Below are positions 330 to 46,183 of a stretch of 48,850 bases of DNA, in pieces. The position numbers and the translations under genes are program-made. This DNA comes from Rhodocyclaceae bacterium. GTDB taxonomy: Bacteria; Pseudomonadota; Gammaproteobacteria; Burkholderiales; Rhodocyclaceae. The notes under the pieces were generated by a model. The model saw nothing but the letters and a program-made list of their open reading frames with translations, was not told the DNA's origin and ran no database searches. The first letter of the stretch is position 1, and each line of letters starts with the position of its first letter. Location of the stretch: NCBI GenBank assembly GCA_011391215.1, contig JAABQX010000010.1, forward strand, positions 1 through 48,850. The letters are read 5' to 3'.

Positions 330-1958
330 TTAAATGGGTTTGATGGTGGATTCGTCGATGCTGGCGTCGAACAGGTCGCACAACTCGTTGACCAGGGGAT
401 CGCTCTCGATGGCGGCGATGGCGCGGTCCTGCCGTTCGCGTTTTTCACCATCAGCGCGGGTTTTCGGGGTTTCCCCCTCGGGTTCGGCCAGCACGATTTC
501 AAGAACGAGCGGACGAGCAAAATGTTTGATGAGTTCCGCACGTAGTTTTTCCTGATGCGACTGGAGATACTTGTGTGCCGGCGCCAGGCGCAGCACGATG
601 CGCGCATCGTCGAGACTCGCCAACTCACAATGCTGGGCCAACTGACGGACTAGGCCGGCGGGCAAACCAGCCGCCAAGCCATGCCAGTCATCGCTCCCGG
701 CTTCAACAGGCCCAGCGGCAACCATTGGGGTTGAAGCCGGTGCAACGACTGTTGTTAGTTGTGGCTGCGGCGCAGCGGCTCTTGGCAACGTCGTATTTTG
801 GCGTACCGGTTGCGCCGTCCCCGTACTGGAACGGCCCGGCTGCGCCGTCCCGTGGGTGCCGACTTTTTCATTCCCGCTAGACGGGCGGAACGCATGCAGC
901 CGCAACAGCGTCATGCCGAAGCCCGCCGCCTCATCCGGCGCCAGCGTCAGTTCGTCGCGGCCGTGGATGGCGATCTGGTAGCACAGCTGCAAAAACTCGG
1001 CGTCGAGCCGTTCGGCATACGACGCCAGCCGCTCGCGCTCAGCCACATCAAGCAATGCATTGGGCGCCAGTTGCACCAGCGCGATACGATGGAACAAGGT
1101 CGCCAGTTCCTGCAGCGCCGAATCGAAGCTCAGGCTGCGTGCCTCCATGGTGTCAGCCACCGCCAGCATGGCATGGATGTCACCGGCCGCCAGTCCGTCA
1201 AGCAAGGCAAACAGGTGGTCATCGCCCACCGTGCCGAGCATGGCCCGCACGCCCTCCTCCTCGATACGACCGGCGCCGTGGGCGATCGCCTGATCGAGCA
1301 ACGAGAGCGCATCGCGCATCGAACCGGCGGCGGCCTTGGCGAGATGACGTAGCGCGGCGGGTTCGCAGGCGATGCCTTCCGCTGCCAGCACACGCGTCAG
1401 ATGCTCGATGATGTGGCCCGGCGGCATCTGCTTGAGGTTGAATTGCAGGCAGCGCGACAGCACCGTCACCGGAATCTTTTGCGGATCGGTGGTGGCGAGG
1501 ATGAACTTGACGTGCTCCGGCGGCTCTTCCAGCGTTTTCAACATCGCGTTGAAGGCATGGCCGGAAAGCTGGTGCACTTCGTCGATCATGTACACCTTGT
1601 AGCGGCCGCTGTTCGGCGCATACGCTGCCTTTTCGAGCAGCGCCGCCATGTCGTCGACGCCGCGATTCGAGGCGGCATCCATTTCCACGTAGTCGATGAA
1701 GCGTCCGCTATCAATCTCCGTGCAGGCGGAACAAACCCCGCAAGGCGTCGACGTGATGCCGGTTTCGCAGTTCAGCGCCTTGGCGAGGATGCGCGCGATC
1801 GTCGTCTTTCCCACGCCGCGCGTACCGGTGAAGAGGTAAGCATGGTGCAGCCGCTGCTGTTCGAGCGCATGCACCAGTGCGCGCACCACATGTTCCTGCC
1901 CGACCAGGGTGTCGAAAGACTTGGGGCGCCACTTGCGGGCCAGTACTTGATAATTCAT
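330..1958 (-). CDS. dnaX: DNA polymerase III subunit gamma/tau
   Basis: Clamp-loader ATPase of the replicative polymerase, 542 residues. I start it at [10 protein letters not shown] (1958) because this is the family N-terminus, although the frame stays open upstream to 2135. The AAA+ module shows Walker A GTRGVGKT (45-52), four zinc-ligand cysteines (64, 73, 76, 79), Walker B DEVH (126-129) and the SRC arginine-finger motif (168-170). After about residue 360 comes a low-complexity Gly/Thr/Gln linker, then the tau-type C-terminal region. The linker carries a copy of the 24-base dispersed repeat (844-867) and a 16-base direct repeat nearby. A TAGAAT box ends 7 bases before the ATG and there is no Shine-Dalgarno, so the transcript may be leaderless. 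ybaB follows 10 bases downstream. Confidence 0.97.
806..851. repeat. 16-base direct repeat in dnaX linker
   Basis: Two copies, 806-821 and 836-851, match at 15 of 16 positions and encode GTAQP twice. Both contain GCGCCGTCCC, which is also the left end of the adjacent 24-base repeat. A local duplication of that end is plausible. Confidence 0.6.
844..867 (+). repeat. 24-base dispersed repeat, copy 1 (in dnaX)
   Basis: Starts GCCGTC and ends GCCGACTTTT. It has four differences from the commonest form, all in the middle block. Read on the dnaX strand it encodes KVGTHGTA in the linker between the AAA+ domains and the tau tail. Confidence 0.75.
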
Positions 1959-1965
1959 GCCCGCG

Positions 1966-1971
1966 ATTCTA
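1966..1971 (-). promoter_or_regulatory. Candidate extended -10 box for dnaX
   Basis: On the minus strand the sequence reads TTTGTTAGAAT, a TAGAAT box with the extended TG one base upstream. Only seven bases separate it from the dnaX ATG and no Shine-Dalgarno lies between. A start site at or next to the ATG would make the mRNA leaderless. No good -35 is visible. Confidence 0.45.
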
Positions 1972-1980
1972 ACAAACGCA

Positions 1981-2008
1981 AACGGGCGCCCTGCATCGAG
2001 CGCCCGTT
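1981..2008. terminator. Hairpin between the Spy-like gene and dnaX
   Basis: Perfect 9-base arms AACGGGCGC and GCGCCCGTT enclose a 10-base loop. CTTCTTTT follows on the plus side and a T-rich TGCGTTTGTT follows on the minus side. For minus-strand transcription it sits 20 bases after the Spy-like stop and just before the dnaX -10 box, so it probably ends the Spy-like transcript. Confidence 0.65.
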
Positions 2009-2028: not shown

Positions 2029-2583
2029 TCAGCTTTGCGGCGGCATTCCCCGGCCCGGGCCGCCCATGCCGCCACCGTGCCTACCGCCGTGTCCACCCAT
2101 GCCGCCCCCCATCTTGGCAACTTGCTGGTCCGCAAGTAACTTCTGCTCGGGCGTCAGCGCATCGTACAAGCGCTTGAAGTTCTCATTCACCCCGGTCAGT
2201 GCGGTGAGATGCTCCTGCATCATGACCTGACGCTTGGCCATGCGTTCGGGGGCAGTCAATTTTTCATCCGCCGCCTGCGCCTGGAAAGCCTGGCGGCCCT
2301 TGCCGGCCTCGCTCTTGGCCTTCTCGGCAAAAGCCTGCCAAAGCGGTTCCTGCTGCGGCGTCAGCTTCAACGGGCCTTTGAACATGTCGAGGCGCTGCTC
2401 GGCACGAGCGGCCGGATCGAACTTCATCGATGCCTGACGTCCCATGGGGCCACCCTGCATGCCCATTGGCCCGGTGCCCTGCGGCCCCATGCCGTCGCAG
2501 CCAGAGCGGCCTTGCGCAATGGCGGCGCCGCCGATACCTGCGGCGATGATCAAACCGGCGATGATTTTGTGATTGCGTTTCAT
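2029..2583 (-). CDS. Spy/CpxP family periplasmic LTxxQ-motif protein
   Basis: Secreted protein of 184 residues. The ATG at 2583 has AAGGAG close upstream and is followed by a typical signal peptide (MKRNHKIIAGLIIAAGIGG, cleavage near AIA-QG). Two LTxxQ-type motifs are visible: LTPQQ in the middle and LTPEQ near the end, as in Spy/CpxP, which bind unfolded proteins in the periplasm and respond to envelope or metal stress. Both the segment after the signal peptide and the tail are rich in Gly, Met and His, so metal binding is possible (inference). It stands alone between ffs and dnaX. An inverted repeat lies upstream at 2651-2665. Confidence 0.8.
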   Translation of the reverse strand: MKRNHKIIAGLIIAAGIGGAAIAQGRSGCDGMGPQGTGPMGMQGGPMGRQASMKFDPAARAEQRLDMFKGPLKLTPQQEPLWQAFAEKAKSEAGKGRQAFQAQAADEKLTAPERMAKRQVMMQEHLTALTGVNENFKRLYDALTPEQKLLADQQVAKMGGGMGGHGGRHGGGMGGPGRGMPPQS

Positions 2584-2650
2584 GTTGCTCTCCTTGTGAG
2601 TGAACCGTCGATGGGAGAGATTAGGCGCCGCGGATGTAAGCGGACGATAT

Positions 2651-2665
2651 CCGGTTTGTAACCGG
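2651..2665. promoter_or_regulatory. Inverted repeat upstream of the Spy-like gene
   Basis: CCGGTT, a 3-base loop, then AACCGG: a perfect 6-base inverted repeat about 70 bases before the Spy-like ATG and 33 bases after the end of ffs. It could be an operator or a weak processing/termination hairpin for ffs. No T-run follows. Confidence 0.3.
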
Positions 2666-2697
2666 GTATGAAACGTGAAACATTTTGAAAGGGAGAG

Positions 2698-2797: not shown

Positions 2798-2802
2798 GAC
2801 GA

Positions 2803-2833: not shown

Positions 2834-2857
2834 GATCAGCAATCAATCCGGCAATTT

Positions 2858-3730
2858 TCAGAGGCATTGCAAAAACTCGCGCACCACGGCGACTTGCGCG
2901 TCATCCATGAACATCGGCGCATGGCCGACACCGGGGATTTCCACGCTGCGCGCACGCGGTCCGCGCTCGCCCATCGCCGCCACCGTCTGCCGTGACAGCA
3001 GATCGGAGGTTTCTCCACGCACCACCAGTGTCGGGCAACGGATCGCGTCATACAGCGGCCAGAGATCGACATCCTTGCCCACTTCGCCTTGCGCGGCCAC
3101 TGCGGCGTTGAAGGGCGCGGCAATCCCCGGGTCGTAGCGCAAAGCGATGCGCCCATTCGACCCGGTCTTGACGACACGCTCGGTGAGATGTCGCCACTGC
3201 CCGTCGGTGAGATTGCCGAAGGGCGCTGCAATCAGGCGGATGTAGTGCTCGGCCTCCTCGATCGTGGCGAAATCGGGCGGTGTGGCGAGATATGTACTGA
3301 TGCGCGCCAGGGCGCCCGCCGCAATCACCGGCCCGACATCGTTAAGAATCAGCCGCCGGATCGGTGTTTCAGCTTGCGCCGCCAACGCCATGCCGATCAT
3401 GCCGCCCATCGAGGTGCCGAGCCAATCGACGGTCTCGACATCGAGCCGTGCGAGCAGCGCCACCATGTCGGCCGCGTATTGCGGAATACCGTAGTGCAGC
3501 GGTTCGCGCAGCCAGTCGCTCTGACCACGCCCGACGACGTCGGGGCAAACCACGCGGTATGCACCTGCCAGAGCCTGCGCCAGATAATCGAAATCACGCC
3601 CGCAACGGGTCAGGCCATGCACGCAGATCAACACACGTGGATTGTGCGGATCGCCCCACTCGACATAGGCCATGCGATGGAAGCCGGCAGGACTCAGGCA
3701 TTTGACGAAACTCTGGCGCATTGCTGTCAT
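2858..3730 (-). CDS. Alpha/beta-fold hydrolase, substrate unknown
   Basis: A 290-residue hydrolase fold. CVHGL (36-40) is the oxyanion-hole region, GTSMGG (105-110) is the nucleophile elbow with Ser107, and Asp243 and His270 (GVGH) complete a plausible triad. Its ATG overlaps the comEC stop as ATGA, so it is translationally coupled to comEC; a second in-frame ATG three codons on is possible. No signal peptide is seen, so it should be cytoplasmic. Related proteins are annotated as generic esterases or hydrolases and nothing in the sequence fixes a substrate. The link to comEC is by expression only. Confidence 0.85.
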   Translation of the reverse strand: MTAMRQSFVKCLSPAGFHRMAYVEWGDPHNPRVLICVHGLTRCGRDFDYLAQALAGAYRVVCPDVVGRGQSDWLREPLHYGIPQYAADMVALLARLDVETVDWLGTSMGGMIGMALAAQAETPIRRLILNDVGPVIAAGALARISTYLATPPDFATIEEAEHYIRLIAAPFGNLTDGQWRHLTERVVKTGSNGRIALRYDPGIAAPFNAAVAAQGEVGKDVDLWPLYDAIRCPTLVVRGETSDLLSRQTVAAMGERGPRARSVEIPGVGHAPMFMDDAQVAVVREFLQCL

Positions 3731-6108
3731 GGCGAACTTTCACGGGAAACGAAGTCAGGATTGTGCCAGTAGCGCCGCCGTTGCTCACGTTCATGCACGA
3801 TGTCGGCGCCCGCCACCGAATAATTCACAGTGACGGCCCCCGCCTGATCGGTGCGATGAATGCTTGCGCTGCCAGCCAGATAGCGGTCGAGAACTTCCGG
3901 GTAGGGATGGCCGAAGCGATTCCGGTAGCCGACCGGAAAAATCACCTCACGTGCCCCCACAGCCGTCACAAAAGCCGGCGATGACGTGCGCTTGCCGCCA
4001 TGGTGCGGCGCCACCAGAATATCTGCCTGCACGTCCGGGCCATGGCGCGCCAGCAGGGCCGCTTCGGCCGCACCTTCGAGATCGCCGGGGATCAGCACCG
4101 TGCCGTGCGGGCTGTCGATCTTGAGCACACAACTCATGGCGTTCGTCGCCAGCTTGCGCTTGTAGTCATCGGCCAGCGGATGCAGCAGACGAAAACGCAC
4201 GCCATCCCATTCCCAGCTTTCCCCGTCGCCACATTGCCGTCCCGCCAGCACCGACTTTTGCAGGATCGGATGCGTCGGGGGGATGGAGGTGATGAAGTCG
4301 GCAACCGGTAGCGCGGCAAGCAAGGAAACCGCGCCGCCGGCATGATCCTGATCGGCATGGCTGACAATCAACGTATCCAGGCGTTGCACACCGGCTGCCC
4401 GCAAATAAGGCCAGAGGATGCGGTTGCCGCTATCGGCGGCGACATTAAAGGTAGGGCCGGTATCGAATATCAAGTCGTGCGTGGCGGTTTGCACATGCAC
4501 GGCCTGGCCCTGGCCGACGTCGAGCACGGTGATTCGCATCTCGCCCGGCGCGGGTCGTGGCGGAAAAATGAAGAACAAGGGCAGGAAACTCACCAGCCCC
4601 AGCCAGCGCGCAGGGAAACCGCGCGGCAGCAGCAGCCAGAGCGTCCCCGCCAGTGCCAGCGGTACCGCCCAAACGGGGGGCGCGTGCTGCTGCCAGAGCG
4701 CGCCCGGCAGGGCAGCCAGCCATTCCAGGAACACCATGAGGCCGGTCAGCAGCCCATGCGCCAACTGCAGCGCGATGCCGCCACCGGGCAGGCTGCCGAG
4801 CAGCGCCAGCGGCGTGACCAGAAAACTCACCAGTGGAATCGCCAGGGCATTGGCAATGGGCGAGACCAGCGAGAACTGCTGGAACAGCGCCAGCAGCGCG
4901 GGGATCAGGCCGAGTAGCATCGCCCATTGCGCCCTGCCCCATTCGACCAGCCAGTGCCGCTGCCCCAGCCGTCCCTGGCCAATATAGAAGAGCAGCGCCA
5001 CCGCGCCAAAAGACAACCAGAAACCGGCTGCCAAGACCGCCCACGGGTCGAGCAGCAGCACCAGCAGCAACGCGAGTCCCAACACGTGCGGAGCAGCCAC
5101 GGCACGTCCGGAAAGCATCGCCACTGCCACCACACCGAGCATGTAGAGCGTACGCTGCGCCGGCACACCGAAGCCGGCGAGCAATGCATAGCCGAACGCT
5201 CCGGTGAAACCGGCGAGTGCGGCGGCTTTCTGTGCCGGCCAGAGCAGCGGCAGACGCGGCGAACGCCGCCAGAATACGGCTACTAGCCAGGCGACGAGAC
5301 CGCCGAGCATCGTCACATGCAGCCCGGAAATCGACATCAGGTGGGTGATGCCGGTGGCGGCAAACAAGCGCCAGAGCTCCGGCGCGATGGCCTGCTGGTC
5401 ACCCACCGCCAGCGCCGCGAGCACACCGGCGTAGGGTTGGTCGGGCAAGGTATGGGAAATCCGTGTCCGCGCCGACTCGCGCAGCCGCTCAATCGCACCG
5501 GACAGGCCGCCAGCACCTGTCTCCAGCCGTCCCGTCAGCGCCGACTTTCTGACGTAACCCGTGGCGCGGATGTTGCGCTCAAACAGCCAGCCCTCGTAAT
5601 CGAAACCGTGCGGATTGACATTGCCATTCGGTCGTTTCAGACGCACCAGAAAGCGCCAGCGCTCCCCCGCGTGCGGCAGTGGCAGTCCATTGGGTGCAGC
5701 GAATTCTTCGTCGGTTTCGTCATCCGCATCGGTATCGAACTGGCGATACCAGCTCAGTGCGATGCGGCGCGGCACCGGCGCAGCCGCTTGCTCAACCGCA
5801 ACAGTAAAGCGCACCCCGCGTTCGAAACGTTGCGGCAACTCGGCAACCACGCCGGTGATTTCGATGTCGCGCCCTTCCCACTCGACCGGCAGGGCATCCG
5901 CCAGCCGCCAGTGGGCAAATCCCCCTGCCCAGGCCAGCCCGAGCAAGGCCGCGCCAATTATGGATAGCCAGCGCCGACGCTGCCGTCCGGCCAGCCACAG
6001 CAGCGACCCAGCCACCGCCATGGCCGCCAGAAAAGTCGGCGCTGGCAGGACGGCACGCTGTTGCAGCAGCCAGATGCCCAGCGCAAAAGCCAGCACCCGC
6101 CACGGCAT
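3727..6108 (-). CDS. comEC: ComEC/Rec2 DNA internalisation channel protein
   Basis: Inner-membrane protein of 793 residues that carries single-stranded DNA into the cytoplasm during natural transformation. It has N-terminal membrane segments and a DUF4131-type soluble domain (roughly 25-170). The competence domain follows, with its motif HLMSISGLHV near residue 258 and many hydrophobic helices to about 500. The C-terminal metallo-beta-lactamase-like domain begins at VLDVGQGQ (about 527) and has the metal motif SHADQDHAGG near 584. Full length, with no visible defect. It diverges from the DUF2062 gene 12 bases away and overlaps the hydrolase start. It holds three copies of the 24-base repeat (4236, 5526, 6031), more than any other gene here. 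Confidence 0.96.
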   Translation of the reverse strand: MPWRVLAFALGIWLLQQRAVLPAPTFLAAMAVAGSLLWLAGRQRRRWLSIIGAALLGLAWAGGFAHWRLADALPVEWEGRDIEITGVVAELPQRFERGVRFTVAVEQAAAPVPRRIALSWYRQFDTDADDETDEEFAAPNGLPLPHAGERWRFLVRLKRPNGNVNPHGFDYEGWLFERNIRATGYVRKSALTGRLETGAGGLSGAIERLRESARTRISHTLPDQPYAGVLAALAVGDQQAIAPELWRLFAATGITHLMSISGLHVTMLGGLVAWLVAVFWRRSPRLPLLWPAQKAAALAGFTGAFGYALLAGFGVPAQRTLYMLGVVAVAMLSGRAVAAPHVLGLALLLVLLLDPWAVLAAGFWLSFGAVALLFYIGQGRLGQRHWLVEWGRAQWAMLLGLIPALLALFQQFSLVSPIANALAIPLVSFLVTPLALLGSLPGGGIALQLAHGLLTGLMVFLEWLAALPGALWQQHAPPVWAVPLALAGTLWLLLPRGFPARWLGLVSFLPLFFIFPPRPAPGEMRITVLDVGQGQAVHVQTATHDLIFDTGPTFNVAADSGNRILWPYLRAAGVQRLDTLIVSHADQDHAGGAVSLLAALPVADFITSIPPTHPILQKSVLAGRQCGDGESWEWDGVRFRLLHPLADDYKRKLATNAMSCVLKIDSPHGTVLIPGDLEGAAEAALLARHGPDVQADILVAPHHGGKRTSSPAFVTAVGAREVIFPVGYRNRFGHPYPEVLDRYLAGSASIHRTDQAGAVTVNYSVAGADIVHEREQRRRYWHNPDFVSRESSP
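4236..4259 (+). repeat. 24-base dispersed repeat, copy 2 (in comEC)
   Basis: One difference from the commonest form. On the comEC strand it encodes KSVLAGR, within the metallo-beta-lactamase-like domain. Confidence 0.85.
5526..5549 (+). repeat. 24-base dispersed repeat, copy 3 (in comEC)
   Basis: Two differences from the commonest form. It encodes KSALTGR, just before the competence domain. Confidence 0.85.
6031..6054 (-). repeat. 24-base dispersed repeat, copy 4 (in comEC)
   Basis: One difference. It is in opposite orientation to copies 2 and 3, so the comEC strand reads it as AVLPAPTF in the N-terminal membrane region. Confidence 0.85.
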
Positions 6109-6693: not shown

Positions 6694-7356
6694 CAAAAGT
6701 CGGCGCTGGCAGGACGCCGCCAGCGTCGCATCATGGGTGACGATCACCAGACTGGTGCCGTGCGCCGCGTTCATGTGCAACATCAAGGCAAATACTTCAT
6801 CCGCCGTACGGCGATCGAGGTTGCCGGTCGGCTCGTCGGCCAGTACGCACGCCGGCCGTGTCACCAGGGCACGCGCCAGCGCAGCCCGCTGACGCTCGCC
6901 ACCGGAAAGTTCGCCGGGCCGATGCTTGAGCCGCGCGCCCAAGCCGACGTCGGTCAGGAGCGCCGCCGCCTGCGCTTCGGCATCCGCCTTGGCCATGCGC
7001 CGGATCAACAGCGGCATGGCGACATTTTCCAGCGCCGTGAATTCCGGCAGCAGGTGGTGAAACTGATAGACGAAGCCGAGCGATTCGTTGCGCAACCGCC
7101 CACGCTCGGCTTCCGAGACCTCCGCCAAGGCCCGGCCGAGCAGATGAACTGTGCCGGCCGATGGCACATCCAGCCCACCCAACAGATGCAGCAGCGTGCT
7201 CTTGCCGGAACCGCTGGAACCGACAATCGCCAGCGTCTCGCCAGCGCCGATTTTCAGGTCGATGCCGGTCAGCACCGGCACATCGGTCGCGCCCTGGCGG
7301 AAGATTTTGGCCAGACCGGCACAGACTAGAACGGGCGCCTTCATGGAATCACTCAT
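6586..7356 (-). CDS. lolD: Lipoprotein-releasing system ATP-binding protein LolD
   Basis: ABC ATPase of 256 residues that powers transfer of outer-membrane lipoproteins from the inner membrane to LolA. Walker A GSSGSGKS (46-53), the Q-loop region [18 protein letters not shown], signature LSGGE (150-154), Walker B VLADE (171-175) and His208 are all present. The [16 protein letters not shown] stretch is typical of LolD/MacB-type ATPases. The start overlaps the end of lolC by 8 bases. Compared with the usual 228-233 residues there is a tail of about 22 residues that runs antisense to the DUF2062 gene. The 24-base repeat at 6695-6718 encodes ASCQRRLL just before DGRL. Confidence 0.94.
6695..6718 (-). 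repeat. 24-base dispersed repeat, copy 5 (in lolD)
   Basis: Two differences. It begins one base after the DUF2062 stop codon but lies inside lolD, where it is read as ASCQRRLL, the only copy in that register. Confidence 0.85.
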
Positions 7357-9597: not shown

Positions 9598-9603
9598 CCG
9601 CGC

Positions 9604-11283: not shown

Positions 11284-11284
11284 G

Positions 11285-15015: not shown

Positions 15016-15057
15016 GATTCAGCTGCCGTCCCGCCAGCGCCGACTTTTGCCTGAATC
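15016..15057. terminator. Inverted arms around a 24-base repeat, tamB/fusion-gene convergence
   Basis: GATTCAG (15016-15022) and CTGAATC (15051-15057) are perfect 7-base inverted arms. The 28-base loop is almost exactly one copy of the 24-base repeat. The right arm overlaps the stop codon of the convergent gene. It is possibly a shared terminator; the loop is long, so this is tentative. Confidence 0.35.
15025..15048 (+). repeat. 24-base dispersed repeat, copy 6 (intergenic)
   Basis: Exact form, identical over 24 bases to the copy at 27531. It lies in the 60-base gap between convergent tamB and the kinase fusion gene. Confidence 0.9.
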
Positions 15058-17505: not shown

Positions 17506-18498
17506 ATGCAACTCACCCTGTATGTCCCCGGCCTGCTGCTGCCGGATGCGATCCGCGCCGACAACGTGTTCGACCTCAACGCACCCGCCTTTTCCCTGTT
17601 ATTGGGGCGCGGGGAGCGTCTCGAACTGCCTCCCGACTGGCTGGCCAGTGCCTTTGGCCTTGTTTCTCCTGTTCCGGCAGCGGCTTTACGAAAAGTCGGC
17701 GTCGGCGGGACGGCGGCAGGGGAGTGGATTTGCCTAGATCCGGTGCATTTGCAGGTTGCACGTGAAGGTATTTCGGTCGCCGATCCGGCCCGGATCGATC
17801 TCACTGAAGAGGATGCCGCCCTCCTGATTGATGCTGTACAACCGCTATTTTCCGGGTGGGGCGAGATTTCAAGCACGACGCCAACACGCTGGGAAATGCG
17901 CCTGAGCCGGCCTGTTGCACTCGAAACCCGCACCTTGCCGCAGGTTGTCGGCCAGCCGGTGAACCCCGCGTTGCCTGGCGGTGCGGATGGCCGTGAATGG
18001 CGCCAACTCTTGTCGGAAGCCCAGACGGTATTACATGCCCATACGCTCAATCAACATCGGGATGCCCTCGGCAAGCCGACCGTCAATAGCTTGTGGCCTT
18101 GGGGAGAGGGTCCCCTGCCCGACCACATTCAGGCGAACTTCAATGTTGTCTGGAGTGATGACCCCGTGCTCGCCGGCCTCTGCGCCCATGCCGGAATGCC
18201 ATGCCTGGCTGTGCCCGACAGGTTCCAAATCGCCAGCGGACGCGTGCTCGCTGGCGTCGATCTGCTGGAGCAGCCGGCCCGCCAACTCGATGTGCTGGCC
18301 TGGCGGGAAAATCTGCTGAAATTCGAGCACAACTGGCTGGCGCCGGCCATCGCCGCAGTGAAAAAAGGGGAGTGTCGCGAATTGCGGCTGATCGGTACTC
18401 GCGTTAATGAACAGCCCGCGACGGTGGCCTTCGTCCTGACACGTGGCGCATTGCGACGCTTCTGGCGCCGTTCGCAACCACTCTCGACACTGGCATGA
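17506..18498 (+). CDS. Conserved protein of the COG4255 type, often annotated as phosphoglycerate mutase
   Basis: A 330-residue soluble protein beginning MQLTLYVPGLLLPDAI. I recognise it by position and by the pattern QHRDALGKPTVNSLWPWGEG: proteins of this kind regularly precede recJ in betaproteobacteria and are labelled phosphoglycerate mutase-like. I cannot see a convincing catalytic set and give no function. Its stop overlaps the recJ start as ATGA, so it is coupled to recJ. It diverges from the kinase fusion gene with a 113-base gap. It contains a copy of the 24-base repeat (17691-17714), encoding KVGVGGTA near residue 63. Confidence 0.75.
   Translation: MQLTLYVPGLLLPDAIRADNVFDLNAPAFSLLLGRGERLELPPDWLASAFGLVSPVPAAALRKVGVGGTAAGEWICLDPVHLQVAREGISVADPARIDLTEEDAALLIDAVQPLFSGWGEISSTTPTRWEMRLSRPVALETRTLPQVVGQPVNPALPGGADGREWRQLLSEAQTVLHAHTLNQHRDALGKPTVNSLWPWGEGPLPDHIQANFNVVWSDDPVLAGLCAHAGMPCLAVPDRFQIASGRVLAGVDLLEQPARQLDVLAWRENLLKFEHNWLAPAIAAVKKGECRELRLIGTRVNEQPATVAFVLTRGALRRFWRRSQPLSTLA
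17691..17714 (-). repeat. 24-base dispersed repeat, copy 7 (in the COG4255-like gene)
   Basis: Two differences, both in the middle. It encodes KVGVGGTA on the gene strand. Confidence 0.85.
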
Positions 18499-24772: not shown

Positions 24773-26734
24773 TTAGTTAAAAAACGGCAGCTTGCGATGA
24801 ACCATCTCCATCACGGCGGCCACGGCTTCCTCGATACCCATTGGCGTGGTGTCCACCAACCCGGCATCGTCACACTTTTTCAAGGGCGCCACGCTGCGCG
24901 CGGCATCGCGCGCATCACGTTCCCTCAAGTCCTGCACAATGTCCTGCAAAAGGGGCCACATGTTATCAGGCATTCCCTTGTCGATCAACTGTTTATAACG
25001 CCTTTCACCCCGCGCCTCGGCCGAAGCGGTGAGAAATACCTTCACCAGCGCCTCGGGAAACACCACAGAGCCCATGTCGCGGCCGTCGGCCACCAGTCCG
25101 GGGAAGCGTCGATAAGCTCGCTGGCGATCAAAAAGTGCTGATCGTACTGCGGGCAAGGCCGCCACTTTCGAGGCGCCAACGCCGACGTCTTCAGCGCGGA
25201 TTGCTGCCGTGACATCATCACCCGCCAGCAACACCTGTTCGCCGACAAACTCGGCTGGCAAAGCAGCCGCCACGCGAGCCACACCGGCCTCATCATCCAG
25301 CGCCACGTTCGCGCGCATTGCCGCCAACGCCGTCAGGCGATACAGCGCACCACTGTCGAGAAAGTGGAAACCCAGCACCGCCGCCACGCGTTGCGCCACT
25401 GTGCCCTTGCCTGAGGCCGAGGGACCATCGATGGCGATCACCGGCGCGGCTATGGCGCCGAAAGCATCGAAATATTGCGGGAAAGTCTTGGCGACGCAAC
25501 CCGGATCGTTGATGCGGACTGGCACGCCGCCCAGTGCGTCTAGCGAGAAGCACATCGCCATGCGATGGTCATCATAGGTATCGATAGCGACATTTGGCAA
25601 TAAAGTCGGCGGTGGCGAGACGGCAAGCCAATCACTGCCCTCCTCCACCATCGCGCCAAGCTTGCGCAATTCAGTTGCCATCGCGGCGATACGGTCGGTT
25701 TCCTTCACCCGCCAGGAGGCAATATTCCGCAGCTTGCACGGCCCGTCGGCGAACAGCGCCACCACCGCCAGCGTCATGGCTGCATCGGGGATGTGATTGA
25801 GATAGAGATCGAAAGCCTTCAATTTGCCCGACATCGGAGCAGCAGCCTCGATGAAATTGTCGCCCCAGGTAATCCGCGCACCCAGCGTTTCCAGTGCGTC
25901 GGCAAAACGCACATCACCCTGGATGCTCTGCCGACCGACACCCTCAACGCGCACCGGTCCGCCGCCAATAGCCCCAGCGGCAAGGAAATAGGAGGCCGCC
26001 GAAGCGTCGCCCTCGACATGTAGCAAACCCGGACTACGGTAATGCTGGCCGGCAGCAATCGTGAAGCGCTGCCAGCCTTCGCGCTCAACGGTCACACCAA
26101 AACGCGCCATCAGGTTCAGGGTGATTTCGATGTAGGGCTTGGAAATCAGTTCCGTCGTCACCTCGATCATGGCCGTCTTACCTGTCAGTGGCAAAGCCAT
26201 CAGCAAAGCGGTAAGAAACTGCGATGACACATCGCCACGCACACGAATTGGCGCAGCAAGTTTTATCTCGGCGGGAAATATCTCCAGCGGCGGATAACCC
26301 TCATTCGCCGTGTAGCGTACGTCGCATCCGATCTGGCGCAAGCCATCGACCAGATCACCGATCGGCCGCTCGTGCATGCGCGGTACGCCTGAGAGCCGGT
26401 AATGCCCGCCGGACAGTGCAAGCGCCGCTGTCAGCGGTCGAATCGCCGTGCCCGCATTACCCATGAACAGATCAGCTTCCTTGCCCGGAAAAATGCCCGC
26501 ACAGCCGGACACCCGATAAGAGTTGACACCAAGCGCCGTCACGCCAACGCCGACTTTTTGTAGCGCCGCCAGCATCACCCGCGTATCGTCGGAATCGAGC
26601 AGATCACGAATTTCGGTCTCACCTTCCGCCAGCGCGGCGAGCAGCAACATGCGGTTGGAAATGCTCTTGGAGCCTGGCAATTTCACCGTTCCAGAAGCGC
26701 GCCTCAGGGCAGGCAGATCCAGATAGGCTGTCAT
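24773..26734 (-). CDS. aroA-cmk: Bifunctional EPSP synthase / cytidylate kinase fusion
   Basis: A 653-residue fusion. The first part (about 1-430) is 3-phosphoshikimate 1-carboxyvinyltransferase: [10 protein letters not shown] (19-28) with the substrate Lys and Arg, [10 protein letters not shown], and [11 protein letters not shown] near the end of the domain. A short joint ([11 protein letters not shown]) leads into cytidylate kinase (about 433-653): P-loop [27 protein letters not shown] and RRYKQL. The first enzyme acts in the shikimate pathway; the second makes CDP from CMP. In most proteobacteria aroA and cmk are adjacent separate genes; here there is no stop or restart between them. Two copies of the dispersed repeat lie in the aroA part (25601, 26537). 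The start overlaps the tyrA stop by 4 bases. Confidence 0.95.
25601..25624 (-). repeat. 24-base dispersed repeat, copy 9 (in aroA part)
   Basis: Three differences. It encodes AVSPPPTL shortly before the DDHRMAM active-site strand. Confidence 0.75.
26537..26560 (+). repeat. 24-base dispersed repeat, copy 10 (in aroA part)
   Basis: Two differences. It encodes KVGVGVTA in the N-terminal third of the EPSP synthase domain, in the opposite orientation to copy 9. Confidence 0.85.
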
Positions 26735-27615
26735 GTTGACTTGTCCAGCGTATCAAGCCAGGCATCACGGCGTGTGCGCGCGGTATCAAACATTGTTTCG
26801 AGGCTGGCACTATCGGCACTTGCCAGTAGAACTCGCGTTTTCAGCAATTCGGCCATGTAGGCATCTAGTTCCGCTAGCAGAGCCTTGCGGTTAGCGAGGC
26901 AGATGTCACGCCACATCTCCGGATGACTGCTGGCAATCCGCGTGAAATCGCGGAAGCCGCTGGCAGCAAAACCGAACAACTGATCGGCGTTGTCGCGAAT
27001 GGCAAGGTCATGCACTAGGGCAAACGCCAGCAAATGCGGCAAATGGCTCACCGAGGCAAAGATACGGTCATGTTCCTCCGGCGCCAGTTCCGAGACGCGC
27101 GCGCCGCAGGCCTCCCAAGCCGCGCGCACCTTGGCCACGGCTTCTGGAGTATTTTCGGGCAGCGGCGTCAGCACCACGCGCTTGCCGCAATACAGGTCGG
27201 CCGTGGCCGCTGCCACCCCGCTCTTTTCAGCCCCGGCGATCGGATGTCCGGGGATGAACTGCCCGATCTTGTTGCCAAACGCAGCGCGGGCAGCAGCGGC
27301 CACATCGGACTTGGTGCTGCCACCGTCGGTAACTAGGGTTTGCGGCTCGAGATGCGGCACCAGCGCCTGCATCACGGCGAGCATCTGTCCGACGGGCATG
27401 CCGAGCAGGACCAGATCCGCGCCCTTGAGAGCGCTCGCCCAGCTAGCGGCGATCTCGTCGATCACACCGAGTTGCAGCGCCTTTTCCAGCGGTGCGCGGG
27501 TGCGGCCGATGCCCACAATGTGAACTTCCTGCCGTCCCGCCAGCGCCGACTTTTGTGCGAGGGCAAAGGAACCGCCAATCAACCCAACGCCGCAGACAAC
27601 AATTTTCCCTGTCAT
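26731..27615 (-). CDS. tyrA: Prephenate/arogenate dehydrogenase
   Basis: NAD(P)-dependent dehydrogenase of tyrosine synthesis, 294 residues, monofunctional (no chorismate mutase part). The Rossmann motif GVGLIGGS is at 9-16, and the TyrA motifs [18 protein letters not shown] and [11 protein letters not shown] are visible. A dispersed repeat encodes KSALAGR straight after the Rossmann helix (27531-27554). It overlaps hisC by one base and aroA by four, so it is part of the aromatic amino acid run. Confidence 0.95.
27531..27554 (+). repeat. 24-base dispersed repeat, copy 11 (in tyrA)
   Basis: Exact form, identical over 24 bases to the intergenic copy at 15025. It encodes KSALAGR. Confidence 0.9.
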
Positions 27616-32090: not shown

Positions 32091-34639
32091 TACTCTTGCT
32101 CCTCGTCAGTTTCGATAACTTTTTCGATGCCGGCGAGCTTGGTGCCGTCATCCAGATTGATCAGGCGCACGCCTTGTGCCGAGCGCCCGGTTTCGCGTAC
32201 CTGCGTCACCTTGCTGCGGATCAGCACGCCGCCAGTGGAGATCAACATCACCTCGTCGGTTTCCTCGACCAGCACCGCGCCGACTACCGCGCCGTTGCGC
32301 TCGGAGGTGCTGATGGCGATCATGCCCTTGGTGCCGCGTCCGTGCTTGGTGTACTCGGCGATGGCAGTGCGTTTGCCATAGCCGTTTTCGGTGGCAGTCA
32401 GCACATTGAGACTTTCGTCCTTGGCCACCAGCATGCAGATCACCCGTTGGCCATCCTCCAGCATCATGCCGCGCACACCGCGCGCATTGCGACCCATCGG
32501 CCGCACATCCTCTTCGGAAAAACGCATCGCCTTGCCCGCATCGGAGAACAACATGACATCGCACTGACCATCGGTAATCGAGACACCGATCAGGAAATCG
32601 TTCTCGTCCAGGCCAACCGCGATAATGCCGGCCTTGCGCGGGTTGGAGAAATCCGACAGCGGCGTCTTCTTCACCGTACCCATCGCGGTCGCCATGAAGA
32701 TGTAACGGTTCTCGTCAAAAGTCGGCGTTGGCAGGACGGCAGTAATTTTCTCGCCCTCCTCCAGCGGGAAGAGATTGACGATCGGCTTGCCGCGACTGGT
32801 GCGCGTGCCTTCCGGAACTTCGTAGACCTTGAGCCAATAGACCCGGCCACGATTCGAGAAGCACAGGATGTAATCGTGTGTGTTGGCGATGAACAGTCGA
32901 TCGACGAAATCATCGTCCTTGATGTCGGCGGCCTTCTTGCCGCGCCCACCATGGCGCTGCGTACGATAGTCTTCCAGACGCTGGCGCTTGATGTAGCCGG
33001 TGTGCGAGAGCGTCACCACCATGTCTTCACGGGCAATCAGATCCTCGAGATTGATGTCCGCCGTCTGCAAAATAATTTCGGAGCGGCGCTTGTCCCCGAA
33101 CTGCGCACGGATGGCGGCCAGTTCCTCAGTAATGATCTGCGTGATGCGCTCGGGACGAGCCAGGATGTCGAGCAGATCGGCGATCTGCTCCATCACCTCG
33201 CGATATTCGGCAACGATCTTGTCCTGTTCGAGGCCGGTCAGGCGTTGCAAACGCAGTTCGAGAATCGCCTGGGCCTGCACATCGGACAGCAGATAGCCAC
33301 GCCGCGACATGCCAAATTCAGGTGCCAACCCTTCAGGACGCGAGGCTTCAGCCGCCGCACGCACCAGCATTTCCTCGACCAGCGTCGAGCGCCAAGTACG
33401 CGCCATCAATTCACGCTTGGCATCGGCTGGTGTTGGCGCCGCCTTGATCAGTGCGATGATTTCATCGACGTTGGAGAGCGCGACGGCGAGGCCTTCGAGT
33501 ACATGACCGCGATCACGTGCCTTCTTCAACTCGAACACTGTGCGCCGCGTCACCACCTCGCGACGATGGGAGAGGAAGCACTCTAGGAGTTGCTTGATGT
33601 TCAGCAGTTGCGGGCGGCCATCGACCAGCGCCACCATGTTCATGCCGAAGGTATCCTGCAACTGCGTCTGCTTATAGAGGTTGTTGAGGATGACCTCGGG
33701 CACTTCACCGCGCTTGAGCTCGATCACCAGGCGCATGCCGGATTTGTCCGACTCGTCCTGGATGTGGGCGATGCCCTCGATCTTCTTCTCGTGGACGAGT
33801 TCGGCGATCTTTTCCTGCAGGGTCTTCTTGTTGACCTGGTAAGGCAGTTCATCGACGATGATCGCCTGGCGGCCGGAATTTTTGATCTCTTCATAATGGG
33901 TGCGGGCGCGCATGATGACACGGCCGCGACCGGTCAGATAGCCGTCGCGCACACCGGAAACACCGTAGATCAGGCCGGCTGTGGGGAAATCAGGCGCGGG
34001 AATGATCTTGATAAGCTCCTCGATTTCGATGGCTGGATTATCCAGCAGCGCAAGACAACCATCGAGCACTTCATTGAGGTTATGCGGTGGAATATTGGTC
34101 GCCATGCCCACCGCGATACCGGCGCTACCGTTGATCAGCAGGTTCGGGATGCGCGCCGGCATGACCAGTGGTTCATGCTCCGAGCCGTCATAGTTCGGCC
34201 CGAAGTCAACCGTTTCCTTGTCGATGTCGGCCAGCAATTCGTGGCCAATGCGCGCCATGCGAATTTCCGTATACCGCATCGCGGCAGCATTGTCGCCATC
34301 CACCGAACCGAAGTTACCCTGGCCATCGACCAGCATGTAGCGCAGCGAAAAATTCTGCGCCATGCGCACGATCGTGTCGTAGACGGCCGTATCGCCGTGC
34401 GGGTGGTACTTACCGATGACATCACCGACAATACGCGCCGACTTCTTGTAAGCCCGGTTCCAATCGTTGTTCAACTCATGCATGGCGAACAGCACGCGGC
34501 GATGCACAGGTTTAAGGCCATCACGGGCATCCGGCAGCGCCCGCCCGACGATTACGCTCATGGCGTAATCGAGATAGGAATGGCGCATTTCCTCTTCGAG
34601 GCTGACCGGCAGGGTTTCCTTGGCAAAAGCAGAGGTCAT
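32090..34639 (-). CDS. gyrA: DNA gyrase subunit A
   Basis: Type II topoisomerase subunit of 849 residues that introduces negative supercoils with GyrB. I use the ATG at 34639 ([17 protein letters not shown]); a GTG three codons upstream is less likely. Active-site Tyr is in AAMRYTEIR (about 123). The quinolone-pocket position equivalent to E. coli Ser83 is Thr ([10 protein letters not shown], residue 84). The GyrA box is QRHGGRG. The C-terminal pinwheel ends with an acidic tail. A dispersed repeat encodes AVLPTPTF in the first part of the pinwheel, where other GyrA proteins have a sequence like AILPVTEF. It is the head of the long minus-strand run. Confidence 0.98.
32717..32740 (-). repeat. 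24-base dispersed repeat, copy 12 (in gyrA)
   Basis: Two differences. It encodes AVLPTPTF in the C-terminal domain without changing its length relative to E. coli GyrA as I recall it. Confidence 0.85.
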
Positions 34640-37802: not shown

Positions 37803-39950
37803 TCAGTGCACGGTGGCTGCCTCGCGGCGGCGGTGACTCAGCATCGCCGGCAATGACAGCAACACCAGCAACGCAGCAGCCAAAGCCAGCGGCCAGATGA
37901 CTGGCGGGTTCCAGCGGTCACGCAAGCTTTGGCGCGTGGCGACATCGATGCGCTGATACTTGAGCGTGTTGTTACCTACCTTGGTGGGCTTGCGGTTTTT
38001 CAGCCAACTGTGGCGCAGGCTGTAATCCTTCGGGTGGTAACCCCAGACCCACGGGGTGTCCTGTTGCAGAATCGCCAGCATGCGATCAATCAATTCCTGC
38101 CGCTCCGGCCCACTCTCCATCGCCCGCATCTGCTCGAACAAGCGGTCGTATTTGGGATTGGCATAGTTGGCAGCATTCTCCCCCTGATGTTTTACCTTGC
38201 CCTGCGGGCCATACAGCAGGAACAGGAAATTTTCCGGGTCGGGATAGTCGGCATTCCAGCCAAAATAAAATAGCTGCACCGCGCCCTTGCGCACTTTTTC
38301 CTGAAACCGGTTGTAGTCGGTGCTGCGCACCACCAGTTGCACATCAATCTTCTGAAACTGTTTGTTCAGCCAGTCGATGCGGGTCTTGGCGCCGACCCCC
38401 GTCGCCGTCGTGTCCAGATAGATGACCAGCGGCTCGCCTGTCTTTGCGTCCCGGCCATCCGGCCAACCGGCCTCGGCCAGCAGGCGCCGTGCTATTGCAA
38501 CATCCTTGCGGCGCGGGCCATTTTCAGTCCAGTCATAAATAACCGGATTGACACCCTCACGGCCTGGGCGATAGCCGAAAATTCCCGGCGGAATCGGCCC
38601 CTGCGCAGGAATACCGCGCCCATTCTGGAAAATGGAGACAAATTCTTCCTGATCGATGGTGATGGCAAGCGCCTGCCGCAGTTTGCGCGCCGCCTCTGAA
38701 GTTCCGCCGACCACTGGGTCGAGCATGTTGAAGCCCATGTAGAACGTTGAAGTGGCCACTGAAGTCGACAGCTGGATGCCTTGTGTCTGCATATCGGCAG
38801 TCAGCGAAATCTCGCCACCCGAACCTACCTGCACGGCCTGATCGAAGGAATCCGAGGAGATGCCGGAGGAATCATAATAGCCTTGCAGGAACTTGTTCCA
38901 GTAGGGAATCTGCTCCTTCTCGCGCGTAAACACTACCTTGTCGATAAAGGGCATGGGCTGGCCACAATCGCCGAGAAAACCGGCCTGACGATCTTCCGCA
39001 TCGCCCGCGCAGGGGTAAGTTTCCCCGCGAAAATGCGGATTACGTGCCAGCACCATGCGGGCATTCGGATTATTTTCCGTGAGCATGTAAGGACCTGTCC
39101 CGACCGGATACCAGTCGAGCGTCAGATTTTTTTCCGCCATGCCCGACTGGCTGTGAAATTTGTCGGCTTCCCAAGGCATCGGCGCAAAAAACGGCATGGT
39201 CAGCCAATAGACAAACTGCGGATATTTCCCCTTGATGCGGATCCGATAGCGGTAACGGTCGAGCACCTCGACACCGGCAAGGGAATGCGCACGCAAATCC
39301 AGCCAGCCATCGGCGTGCCGTTCCGCCGGCACCGAGTTTTGTAAAGACTTTGCCAGCTCAGGCAGACCAACGATGTACTCGCCCATCAACCCCAGAATCG
39401 GTGAATGCAGCTTGGGGTGAGCCAGGCGCTTGATGCCATACACGTAGTCCTGCGCTGTCAATTCGCGGGTATCGTTTTGCAAAAAATCGGCCAACACATG
39501 TCTTTTGGCCAATTCGTCCGCGTTAAGTGCGTGATAGATGTAGTGGCCCTCAGGCGTGCGAGCAAAAGCCGGATGCGGCTGATAGCGGATGTTCGGCTTG
39601 ATCTCGATCACATAATCGGTGAAGGCAATACGCGCCGCCGGCGTTGTCGGCGGCAGAGACTTGCCTTGCGCATCGAGATAGCGCGGTAGAGGAACTGCGA
39701 CGGCAGTCGCGGGAATCAGTTCGTAGGGACGCCGCAGGTAGTGATACTGCAGAGGTGGTTCGTAAATCTGCGCCGTAAACGTCATCTCGTCCTCGCTGTA
39801 GGATTGCACGGGGTCAAGATGCTTCGGTCGCTCCGTAAAGGCCGTATAGAGGATGTTGTGGCCCCGATCCGTTGCCGGATAAGGATCGTTCCACGCAACA
39901 CCGCAGCCGGTCAGCAGGAAAATTACCAGTAAATTTAACAATAGGCGCAT
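37803..39950 (-). CDS. Oligopeptide-type ABC transporter substrate-binding lipoprotein with C-terminal membrane helix
   Basis: A 715-residue solute-binding protein of family 5 (SBP_bac_5). I start it at MRLLLNLLVIFLLTGCG (39950), a lipoprotein signal with Cys16 in LTGC. The binding core includes TAFTERPKHLDPVQSYSEDE, DWYPVGTGPYMLTENNPN and FYFGWNADYPDPENFLFLLYG, the last typical of peptide-binding family members. Unusually, the C-terminus has a membrane helix (VIWPLALAAALLVLLSLPAM) and a short basic tail. No permease or ATPase gene lies nearby: ubiG and fabI flank it. A degenerate repeat copy lies at 39317. TACACT seven bases before the ATG and no Shine-Dalgarno suggest a leaderless start. 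Confidence 0.85.
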   Translation of the reverse strand: MRLLLNLLVIFLLTGCGVAWNDPYPATDRGHNILYTAFTERPKHLDPVQSYSEDEMTFTAQIYEPPLQYHYLRRPYELIPATAVAVPLPRYLDAQGKSLPPTTPAARIAFTDYVIEIKPNIRYQPHPAFARTPEGHYIYHALNADELAKRHVLADFLQNDTRELTAQDYVYGIKRLAHPKLHSPILGLMGEYIVGLPELAKSLQNSVPAERHADGWLDLRAHSLAGVEVLDRYRYRIRIKGKYPQFVYWLTMPFFAPMPWEADKFHSQSGMAEKNLTLDWYPVGTGPYMLTENNPNARMVLARNPHFRGETYPCAGDAEDRQAGFLGDCGQPMPFIDKVVFTREKEQIPYWNKFLQGYYDSSGISSDSFDQAVQVGSGGEISLTADMQTQGIQLSTSVATSTFYMGFNMLDPVVGGTSEAARKLRQALAITIDQEEFVSIFQNGRGIPAQGPIPPGIFGYRPGREGVNPVIYDWTENGPRRKDVAIARRLLAEAGWPDGRDAKTGEPLVIYLDTTATGVGAKTRIDWLNKQFQKIDVQLVVRSTDYNRFQEKVRKGAVQLFYFGWNADYPDPENFLFLLYGPQGKVKHQGENAANYANPKYDRLFEQMRAMESGPERQELIDRMLAILQQDTPWVWGYHPKDYSLRHSWLKNRKPTKVGNNTLKYQRIDVATRQSLRDRWNPPVIWPLALAAALLVLLSLPAMLSHRRREAATVH
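39317..39340 (+). repeat. 24-base dispersed repeat, copy 13, degenerate (in binding-protein gene)
   Basis: Four differences from the commonest form, including G for C in the otherwise constant CGAC. It encodes NSVPAER, in the same register as the KSALAGR copies. Probably a decayed or never-perfect copy. Confidence 0.5.
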
Positions 39951-40825: not shown

Positions 40826-40856
40826 GGCGGGAGCCGTCCCGCCAGTGCCGACTTTT
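40826..40856 (+). terminator. Hairpin formed partly by a dispersed repeat after fabI
   Basis: GGCGGGA pairs with TCCCGCC around a GCCG loop. The right arm and loop belong to the 24-base repeat; its CTTTT end lies 8 bases past the stem. It may terminate fabI, although the T-run is short and displaced. Confidence 0.4.
40833..40856 (+). repeat. 24-base dispersed repeat, copy 14 (intergenic)
   Basis: One difference. It lies in the 60-base gap between convergent fabI and ppiD. Confidence 0.85.
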
Positions 40857-44108: not shown

Positions 44109-44136
44109 GGTGTTGGCGACTTCTGCGTGGTGATGG

Positions 44137-44775
44137 TCAGGCGAACAGCCAAGGTTGTGCTTCCTGGTGTTTCGCCTCGAAAGCCTTGATTTCCCCGGCA
44201 TGCTGCAGCGTCAGGCCGATCTCGTCCAAACCCTTCAACATGCAATGCTTGCGGTGCGGCGTGATGTCGAAGCTGAACCACTCGCCGGCAGGATTCCGCA
44301 CCGTCTGCGTCTCCAGGTCAACCCGCAGGCGGTAGCCTTGCGTGGCGGCACACTCGCGGAACAACTGATCAACGATGGCGGCCGACGCAACGATGGGTAG
44401 GACACCATTCTTGTAGCAATTGGAAAAGAAGATATCGGCGAACGAAGGGGCGATGATGGCGCGGAAGCCATAATCTTCTATCGCCCAAGGGGCATGCTCG
44501 CGGCTCGAGCCACAGCCAAAGTTATCGCGGGCCAGCAAGATCTCCGCACCCCGATAGCGCGACTGGTTGAGAACGAAATCCTTTTTAAGCGGCCGGTTCG
44601 TGCAATCCATGCCCGGCTCGCCTTGGTCGGTATAGCGCCACTCGTCAAACAGGTAGGGGCCAAAGCCCGAACGTTTGATCGATTTGAGAAATTGCTTGGG
44701 AATAATCGCGTCGGTATCGACGTTGGCGCGGTCGAGAGGGCAGACCAGGCCGTTGAGTGTGGTGAATGCTTTCAT
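44137..44775 (-). CDS. leuD: 3-isopropylmalate dehydratase small subunit
   Basis: A 212-residue swivel subunit of the isomerase that also hydrates citraconate. I start it at [20 protein letters not shown]; the upstream open frame overlaps leuC and is not coding. Motifs: [28 protein letters not shown] and [12 protein letters not shown]. The ATG follows the leuC stop by one base. With LeuC it serves both leucine and the citramalate route. Confidence 0.97.
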
Positions 44776-44776
44776 G

Positions 44777-46183
44777 TCAGAAGTTCCTGATGTCGACAAA
44801 ATGGCCAGCGATGGCGGCGGCAGCAGCCATTTCCGGACTGACCAGATGGGTACGGCCACCATTGCCTTGGCGTCCCTCGAAGTTGCGGTTGGAGGTTGAA
44901 GCGCAACGCTCACCCGGTTCCAGTCGGTCGGCGTTCATCGCCAGGCACATCGAGCAGCCTGGCTCGCGCCATTCAAAACCAGCGGCAATGAATACTTTGT
45001 CCAGCCCTTCGGCCTCGGCCTGGCGCTTGACCTGGCCTGAACCCGGTACGATCAGCACCTGCTGAACGCTGGCCGCCTTCTGCTTGCCCTTGGCAACGGC
45101 CGCGGCGGCGCGCAAATCCTCGATACGCGAGTTGGTACAACTGCCGATGAATACCTTGTCGAGCTTGATTTTGCTGATCGGCGTATCTGCGACAAGGCCC
45201 ATGTATTGCAGCGCCCGCTCGATACCGGCGCGCTTCTGCGGATCGGGCTCATTGGCAGGGTTCGGCACACGCGCACCAATCGACAGCACCTGCTCGGGAG
45301 AGGTTCCCCAGGTCACCTGCGGTTCGATCGCGGCAGCATCCAGCTCGATCACGGTGTCGAATTGCGCGTCGGCATCCGACGTCAATGTTCGCCAATAGGC
45401 GATGGCCTTGTCCCAATCGGCACCCTTCGGGGCAAACTGGCGGCCCTTCAGATATTCAATGGTTTTCTCGTCAGGCGCCACCAGGCCGGCGCGGGCGCCG
45501 CCCTCGATGGCCATGTTGCATAGGGTCATACGACCTTCTATGGACAACGCACGGATCGCCTCACCGCCGAATTCGATGGCGTAGCCGGTGCCGCCGGCGG
45601 TGCCGATCTTGCCGATGATGGCCAGCGCGATGTCTTTCGCCGTCACGCCAGCGCCGACTTTTCCATCCACCTTGATCAGCATTCGACTGGATCGCTTGGC
45701 CACCAACGTTTGCGTCGCCAGCACATGCTCGACCTCGGAGGTACCGATACCGTGCGCCAGCGCCCCGAAGGCACCGTGCGTCGAGGTATGGCTATCGCCG
45801 CAGACGACGGTCATGCCCGGCAGCGTCGTGCCGTTTTCCGGGCCGATGACGTGAATGATGCCCTGGTTGGCATGCTTGAACGGGAAATACACCAGCGCAC
45901 CGAAGTCCTTGATGTTGGCATCCAGCGTTTCAACTTGCAGGCGCGAGATCGGATCCTTGATGCCCTCGTCCCAGTGGTCGGTCGGCGTATTGTGATCCGG
46001 GTTGGCAACGATGGAAGTGCTCCGCCACGGCCGGCGACCGGCCAGGCGCATGCCTTCAAAAGCCTGCGGACTCGTCACCTCGTGCATCAGGTGGCGGTCG
46101 ATGTAGATCAGGCAGGTGCCGTCGTTTTCTTCGCGGACGACGTGGGAATCCCAGAGTTTGTCGTATAAAGTCTTGCCAGCCAT
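44777..46183 (-). CDS. leuC: 3-isopropylmalate dehydratase large subunit
   Basis: A 468-residue [4Fe-4S] aconitase-family subunit. Start [16 protein letters not shown] with GGAAG upstream; the longer frame is a shadow over cimA. Cluster ligands are in IGSCTNSR and [29 protein letters not shown] is the family signature. A dispersed repeat encodes KVGAGVTA inside the normally conserved stretch that reads GK, two or three variable residues, then PGVTAKDI in other LeuC proteins. The gene lies 35 bases after cimA. Confidence 0.97.
45639..45662 (+). repeat. 24-base dispersed repeat, copy 15 (in leuC)
   Basis: One difference. It encodes KVGAGVTA around residues 174-181, directly before [12 protein letters not shown]. 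Confidence 0.85.

Follow-up and report, generated by a model that had tools for sequence, protein, structure and literature searches.

A short, non-palindromic motif that recurs throughout the genome of a Rhodocyclaceae bacterium most probably is a DNA uptake sequence, that is, a watermark of self-DNA. It was found in a stretch of 48,850 nucleotides (GenBank assembly GCA_011391215.1, contig JAABQX010000010.1, positions 1 to 48,850; hereafter the window) and has the consensus GCCGTCCCGCCAGCGCCGACTTTT, about 25 bases with 36 bits of conservation. As judged from sequence comparisons, it looks like the tag by which these environmental bacteria recognize DNA of their own kind and take it up. This interpretation, already proposed in a preliminary description of the window, is supported by nearly every sequence-level prediction that was checked: the motif is frequent across the genome, occurs on both strands and without polarity, arises mainly by substitution, is tolerated in genes, has dialects, falls into one clade, and is accompanied by competence genes (ComEC, DprA, and type IV minor pilins). 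The letters, the length, and the host family of the motif are new, whereas the uptake sequence as a kind of element is already known.

All 15 copies listed in the preliminary description are present in the window, although one of them starts at 26535 and not at 26537. Two match GCCGTCCCGCCAGCGCCGACTTTT exactly (15025 and 27531), and the remaining ones deviate from it at one (five copies), two (five), three (one), or four positions (two). The orientation count of 10 plus and 5 minus was likewise correct for these copies; a 16th copy with five mismatches, 7232(+), raises the number on the plus strand to 11. The next match in the window, a single one, appears only at seven mismatches. Chance matches begin at this level, as five shuffled windows start matching at seven mismatches and not below. 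The statement that copies begin with GCCGTC and end with GCCGACTTTT does not hold throughout, as those at 4236, 5526, 6695, 7232, 25601, and 39317 differ. Long open reading frames (ORFs), mostly housekeeping genes, contain 14 of the 16 copies, and those at 15025 and 40833 are intergenic. Within the motif, two direct half-sites, GCCGTC and GCCGAC, can be recognized, whose starts are 14 bases apart (GCCGTC-N8-GCCGAC).

The host genome (G000; 2.33 Mb in 102 contigs, 76% complete) contains 269 exact matches to the pattern GCCGTCN8GCCGACTTTT, 148 forward and 121 reverse, and the copies are thus not limited to the 49-kb region in which they were first noticed. The reversed pattern has no match in the whole host genome, and the same holds for every genome of the own-genome, family, order, and G017 scans. 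In 434 kb of G000 (the window plus 20 stretches), 127 copies with up to six mismatches were detected, compared with 2 for the reversed motif and 1 after a Markov-2 shuffle; extrapolation yields approximately 680 copies per 2.33 Mb. A codon-shuffled control, as proposed in the preliminary description, gave an equally clear result: 387 G000 genes, predicted by a simple script and not taken from an annotation, hold 70 copies with up to three mismatches, far above the mean of 2.0 obtained when synonymous codons were shuffled 20 times. At four to six mismatches, some matches persist after this shuffling. The information content amounts to 36.2 bits per site, a value that is somewhat inflated because sites were chosen by similarity, vs. 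12.7 bits needed to locate about 680 sites. The information in the motif is about threefold that required to locate it, as would be expected if its copies were homogenized by drive.

Sequence logos differ between species and are coherent within each of them, and at least four dialects can be distinguished, although the logos of several genomes rest on only 5 to 16 copies. The logo of G000 reads yGCCGTCCCGCCAGCGCCGACTTTT, that of G016 CGCCGCCyCGCCAGCGCCGAsTTT, and that of G005 CACCGT...GACTTTT; G002 and G017 share TGCCGTC... with a relaxed position 20 (in G017, C in 30 and G in 13 of 52 copies). Single positions separate these genomes sharply in tests that treat copies as independent: position 5 is C in 22 of 24 copies of G016 vs. 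1 of 127 of G000 (Fisher 4e-23), position 1 is A in 20 of 22 copies of G005 vs. 4 of 127 of G000 (7e-19), and position -1 is T in 46 of 52 copies of G017 vs. 0 of 24 of G016 (2e-14). At orthologous sites, which are small in number, position 1 changes from G to A in four of five cases between G000 and G005, and position -1 from T to C in three of three between G017 and G016. Because orthologous copies switch their spelling with their genome, the sequences point to one trans-acting reader per genome.

Such a reader might instead be a factor of chromosome maintenance that binds a Chi-, KOPS-, matS-, or repair-like site. Genome-wide copies that lie in genes and arise mainly by substitution are compatible with this explanation too, but we regard it as unlikely. 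The motif is not palindromic and shows no strand or replichore polarity on the single-contig chromosome of G017, along which the 80 "+" copies are uniformly distributed (Kolmogorov-Smirnov p 0.56) and whose first 516 kb contain 19 "+" and 20 "-" copies; this analysis covers 100 of the 171 copies, namely all 80 "+" and the first 20 "-" copies, the latter being compared within the first 516 kb only. A site of 36 bits where 12.7 are sufficient, and one that switches dialect between sister species, would not be expected of a maintenance factor either. Surplus conservation and genome-wide dialect switching fit an uptake drive better than a housekeeping binding site.

Copies of the putative uptake sequence arise mainly by base substitution and not, as a rule, by insertion of a 24-base unit. 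At window positions 6695, 7232, 17691, and 6031, orthologues align mostly without gaps and display versions of the motif graded from poor to perfect; gaps are common in the orthologue alignments at 4236 and frequent at 5526. A broader comparison, of 340 query copies whose flanks were sufficiently long, comprised 649 orthologous pairs, in which the length change was determined over 104 bases. The motif is also present in the homologue in 460 pairs and absent in 189. Of the motif-less homologues, 95 keep the same net length and only 2 differ by -27 to -21, and at random sites a change of about -24 occurs in 4 of 2181 pairs. These figures make it very improbable that the copies represent a dispersed mobile element (repetitive extragenic palindrome (REP)-, miniature inverted-repeat transposable element (MITE)-, or insertion sequence (IS)-remnant-like) that was inserted as a unit of 24 bases. 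This origin would account for copies that are more alike than a binding site needs, for the indel-rich sites, and for the few homologues that differ by -30 (5 pairs) or -36 (1 pair), but not for the graded intermediates, and conservation of the flanks hardly extends beyond one or two bases. Unit insertion and palindromic ends, which characterize REP and MITE elements, were not found, in agreement with the earlier view that the motif resembles neither REP nor IS elements. Insertion as the main route was rejected on the 649 pairs, though the motif sites are rich in gaps.

The earlier statement that the motif resides mostly inside genes is true in absolute numbers (83 of 121 copies in G000), yet genes contain fewer copies than their share of the sequence predicts (69% vs. 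about 88% expected). Across six genomes, 54 to 75% of the copies with up to five mismatches fall into predicted genes, where 81 to 91% would be expected. Intergenic copies between convergent genes number 16 of the 36 for which both neighbors were called in G000, 3 of 11 in G002, and 5 of 17 in G017. This location in G000, together with the terminal TTTT of the motif, might suggest a repeat that acts as a transcription terminator or another RNA element. However, most copies are in genes and in both orientations; only 8 adjacent pairs closer than 120 bases exist among 507 copies (14.7 expected at random), one of them inverted ("-+"), and merely 7 of the 507 have an inverted half-partner upstream. 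A terminator therefore seems as improbable as a mobile element. Several adjacent pairs are spaced by exactly 54 bases (L180:7237-7314, L185:9814, L186:6018, and L056:5031-5108); they share one orientation in G002 and G017 and are inverted in L056. Least probable of all is an artefact of composition or of a common peptide written in biased codons, with which the residue after codon shuffling and the preference for two frames among the 83 genic G000 copies would agree (same strand: phase 0, AVPPAPTF, 26, phase 1 13, phase 2 1; opposite strand: phase 2, KVGAGGT, 28, phase 1 13, phase 0 2), but which conflicts with the count at up to three mismatches in real vs. shuffled genes, with copies that are intergenic or spread over six frame and strand classes, and with the many relatives of the same family that have none.

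As an uptake sequence would be, the motif is shared by related species, and the search among relatives suggested in the preliminary description revealed it in abundance in six genera. Among the matches listed, the named genomes with exact matches are mostly metagenome assemblies labeled Rhodocyclaceae, Sulfuritalea, Sulfurisoma, or Propionivibrio, with some other labels. In the host genus the motif is abundant in 18 of the 19 genomes searched, and likewise in five other genera. A scan of the family, based on a sample drawn from a larger group, found at least one match to CCGYCNYGCCAGCGCCGASTTT in 97 of 395 genomes; by our tally, 50 genomes from six genera have at least 10 matches (g1 18/19, g2 17/22, g25 1/1, g54 1/1, g62 4/4, and g80 9/9), and the top count in any genus beyond these six is 9. 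Elsewhere in the sampled family and order the motif is rare or absent. In the order scan with the pattern CCGTCNYGCCAGCGCCGASTTT, 15 of 399 genomes match, 4 of which belong to the family; outside the family, 11 of 386 genomes contain one to four copies each. In three of the four outside genomes with at least two copies, two of them lie within 4.5 to 8.5 kb of each other (G428:C3:26361 and 30921; G475:C34:277116 and 285458; G590:C24:162 and 7154). Such proximity is as expected of imported DNA, and the paired copies look like watermarked DNA that may have been acquired from motif-bearing species.

The window itself encodes ComEC, the channel through which DNA is translocated in natural competence. 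Of 48 genomes searched, 47 have ComEC, the exception being G018 (83% complete), and DprA was detected in 26 of 28, with no match in G014 and G019. In a comEC tree of 41 rows, all 23 motif-rich rows group in one clade of 25 rows (support 100/99). The motif-free members of this clade are G006 and G024, and the other 16 motif-free rows fall outside. The tree comprises the window and 40 of the 46 other ComEC-bearing genomes (G015 and G016, which have fragments, and G043, G045, G083, and G100 were left out); its motif-free rows were chosen by us from complete genomes with a count of 0. The midpoint root is weak, as are a number of the deep forks, and two of the long rows come together; the conclusions drawn here use the 25-row clade alone. 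A single origin of the motif followed by losses would be the simplest reading of this topology. The comEC gene itself could be exchanged, however, and its tree is thus not a species tree. G006 has a long comEC branch and may serve as a natural control for loss of the motif, or may never have gained it.

For the receptor, candidates are PilE/ComP-like and FimT-like minor pilins, which are encoded side by side. A second GspH locus of G017, G002, G008, G010, G001, and G071 presumably belongs to a different (MSHA-type) pilin set. Searches with PF16732 and PF12019 and a comparison of pilin charge retrieved no gene that is co-distributed with the motif. If the motif is an uptake sequence, a sequence-reading DNA receptor on the type IV pilus, probably a minor pilin, would bind DNA that carries the 24- to 25-base motif. 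The bound DNA would be pulled in, pass through ComEC, be protected by DprA, and recombine into the chromosome. Alleles with a better motif would be imported more often, and recombination would then raise the motif in either orientation wherever sites are neutral or tolerate it. The copies of a genome would be held at the spelling that its resident receptor prefers, and where this preference shifts, the copies would follow and species dialects would emerge. The receptor, the uptake bias, the drive, and the direction of cause are what we infer from these patterns.

Several observations weigh against an uptake sequence or against parts of this scenario. ComEC and DprA also occur in motif-free relatives, among them G006, a member of the same genus that has no match to the motif in either of two genome scans. 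Pilins with PF16732 (ComP_DUS) were detected in 37 of 41 genomes and GspH/FimT-like pilins in 27 of 28, in both cases with or without the motif. The single genome without a GspH/FimT-like pilin is the incomplete genome of the window, which at 76% completeness also has no match to PF16732 or PF12019. DNA that is strain-specific shows no clear depletion of copies: their density per 10 kb is 2.26, compared with 2.67 in shared DNA, in both genomes compared (G017, 8 copies in 35.4 kb strain-specific and 44 in 164.6 kb shared; G002, 8 in 35.3 kb and 44 in 164.7 kb). In G000 the copies have no strand bias within genes (40 on the same strand, 43 on the opposite one) and are evenly distributed along genes without a bias toward gene ends; such strand and gene-end biases are reported for the uptake signal sequence (USS) of Pasteurellaceae and the DNA uptake sequence (DUS) of Neisseriaceae in PMC2346458. 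Finally, only 50% of the motif-less homologues have equal length vs. 83% at random sites, 8 of 189 are shorter by at least 18 bases vs. 9 of 2181 controls, and gaps within a window of 36 columns affect 292 of 649 motif pairs vs. 263 of 2244 random pairs. Point changes may thus not be the whole origin of some copies. The excess of gaps also indicates that motif sites are situated in indel-rich, tolerant DNA.

A 2025 paper (PMC12616744) describes uptake sequences as known only from Neisseriaceae and Pasteurellaceae. Among the literature matches listed, none deals with the letters of the motif or with uptake sequences in Rhodocyclaceae. The motif resembles DUS, whose receptor is ComP, in its many non-palindromic copies, in having dialects with a shared core (PMC3630211, in part), and in its betaproteobacterial host. 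The same excerpts state that DUS dialects follow phylogeny and all share the core CTG at +6 to +8; this core is missing from the motif, and position 8 is G in 0 of the 127 G000 copies. Furthermore, about 680 copies of the motif compare with 2245 to 5918 for the DUS dialects counted in the source excerpts. The motif, with about 25 bases, is longer than DUS with approximately 10 to 12. Its first six bases, GCCGTC, are the same as the start of the Neisseria AT-DUS.

USS resemble the motif in that conserved positions extend beyond their 9-base core and in that their two dialects have a core in common; in PMC12616744, the extended USS spans 17 positions and ComN/PpdA is the proposed receptor. Both elements are common yet under-represented in genes, as 65% of USS in Haemophilus influenzae lie in ORFs whereas about 86% of the genome is coding (PMC2346458). 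The letters differ from those of Hin-USS and Apl-USS as given in the excerpts of PMC12616744, and the minus strand of the motif, AAAAGTCGGC, resembles AAGTGCGG only if a gap is allowed. The 9-base cores AAGTGCGGT and ACAAGCGGT occur in neither strand of the consensus, the bacterial class is another one, and about 25 positions are strongly conserved. Inverted pairs of known uptake sequences have been proposed as terminators (PMC2346458, same excerpts), whereas pairs of the motif are almost never inverted. Since the DUS core and both USS cores are absent, the motif would be of the uptake-sequence kind without being DUS or USS. With respect to a reader, GspH/FimT-like pilins adjoin PilE/ComP-like pilins in most motif-bearing genomes examined, which recalls the DNA-binding minor pilins of the FimT type (PMC8897410, in part). 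However, FimT-like pilins are also present in motif-free relatives, and the parts of PMC8897410 considered describe no sequence-specific FimT.

A more far-reaching reading is possible but tentative. The motif might represent a third uptake language of independent origin, which would be the longest one and the first beyond Neisseriaceae and Pasteurellaceae, with a bipartite site of two direct GCCGWC half-sites whose starts are 14 bases apart and a receptor unrelated to ComP. It would have evolved once in the ancestor of the clade, since diverged by drift into four or more dialects, and disappeared on one or two occasions. Whether uptake sequences are selected species tags or a by-product of a biased receptor and recombination is a matter of ongoing debate. 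With its six genera, at least four dialects, and close lineages that lack the motif (G006 and G024), a third case allows comparative tests of both their origin and the drive hypothesis. Beyond this, an unfamiliar protein that reads DNA can be sought, and the motif can serve as a watermark by which the exchange of DNA within environmental communities is followed.

Table 1. Copies of the motif and the comEC gene in the window.
Feature	Position	Strand	Remarks
Motif copy	844..867	+	4 mismatches; in dnaX-like gene
comEC (natural-competence DNA-translocation channel)	3727..6108	-	TIGR00361 E 5.9e-97; PF03772, PF13567, PF00753; three motif copies inside
Motif copy	4236..4259	+	1 mismatch; in comEC
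Motif copy	5526..5549	+	2 mismatches; in comEC
Motif copy	6031..6054	-	1 mismatch; in comEC
Motif copy	6695..6718	-	2 mismatches; in ABC-transporter ATPase gene; orthologues differ by graded substitutions
Motif copy, absent from earlier list	7232..7255	+	5 mismatches; closer matches in several orthologues
Motif copy	15025..15048	+	0 mismatches to consensus; intergenic
Motif copy	17691..17714	-	2 mismatches; in ORF 17506-18498 (no Pfam match)
Motif copy	21676..21699	+	1 mismatch; in TPR/rubredoxin-domain (LapB-like) gene
Motif copy	25601..25624	-	3 mismatches; in fused EPSP synthase/cytidylate kinase gene
Motif copy	26535..26558	+	2 mismatches; in fused EPSP synthase/cytidylate kinase gene
Motif copy	27531..27554	+	0 mismatches to consensus; in prephenate dehydrogenase gene
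Motif copy	32717..32740	-	2 mismatches; in gyrA
Motif copy	39317..39340	+	4 mismatches; in solute-binding protein gene
Motif copy	40833..40856	+	1 mismatch; intergenic
Motif copy	45639..45662	+	1 mismatch; in aconitase-family (LeuC-like) gene

One part of the window, 8635-15024, which contains DUF3943, Omp85/TamA-like, and TamB-like genes, has no copy of the motif; among the matches listed, it shows short and weak similarity to other genus members, and at other places only. A de novo search for another dialect in motif-free genomes, based on words of 11 and 12 bases, returned no motif-like word among the top ten listed for G006 (134 kb), G021 (79 kb), G023 (100 kb), and G020, G022, and G024 (20-33 kb each). 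In the motif-free relative G023 (L252-L256), overlapping 12-mers around CAGCAAATCCCACAGCA occur 8 times each in 100 kb. In G016 (L198-L202), another frequent word, ATGTCTGGCATG, is found 10 times in 100 kb.

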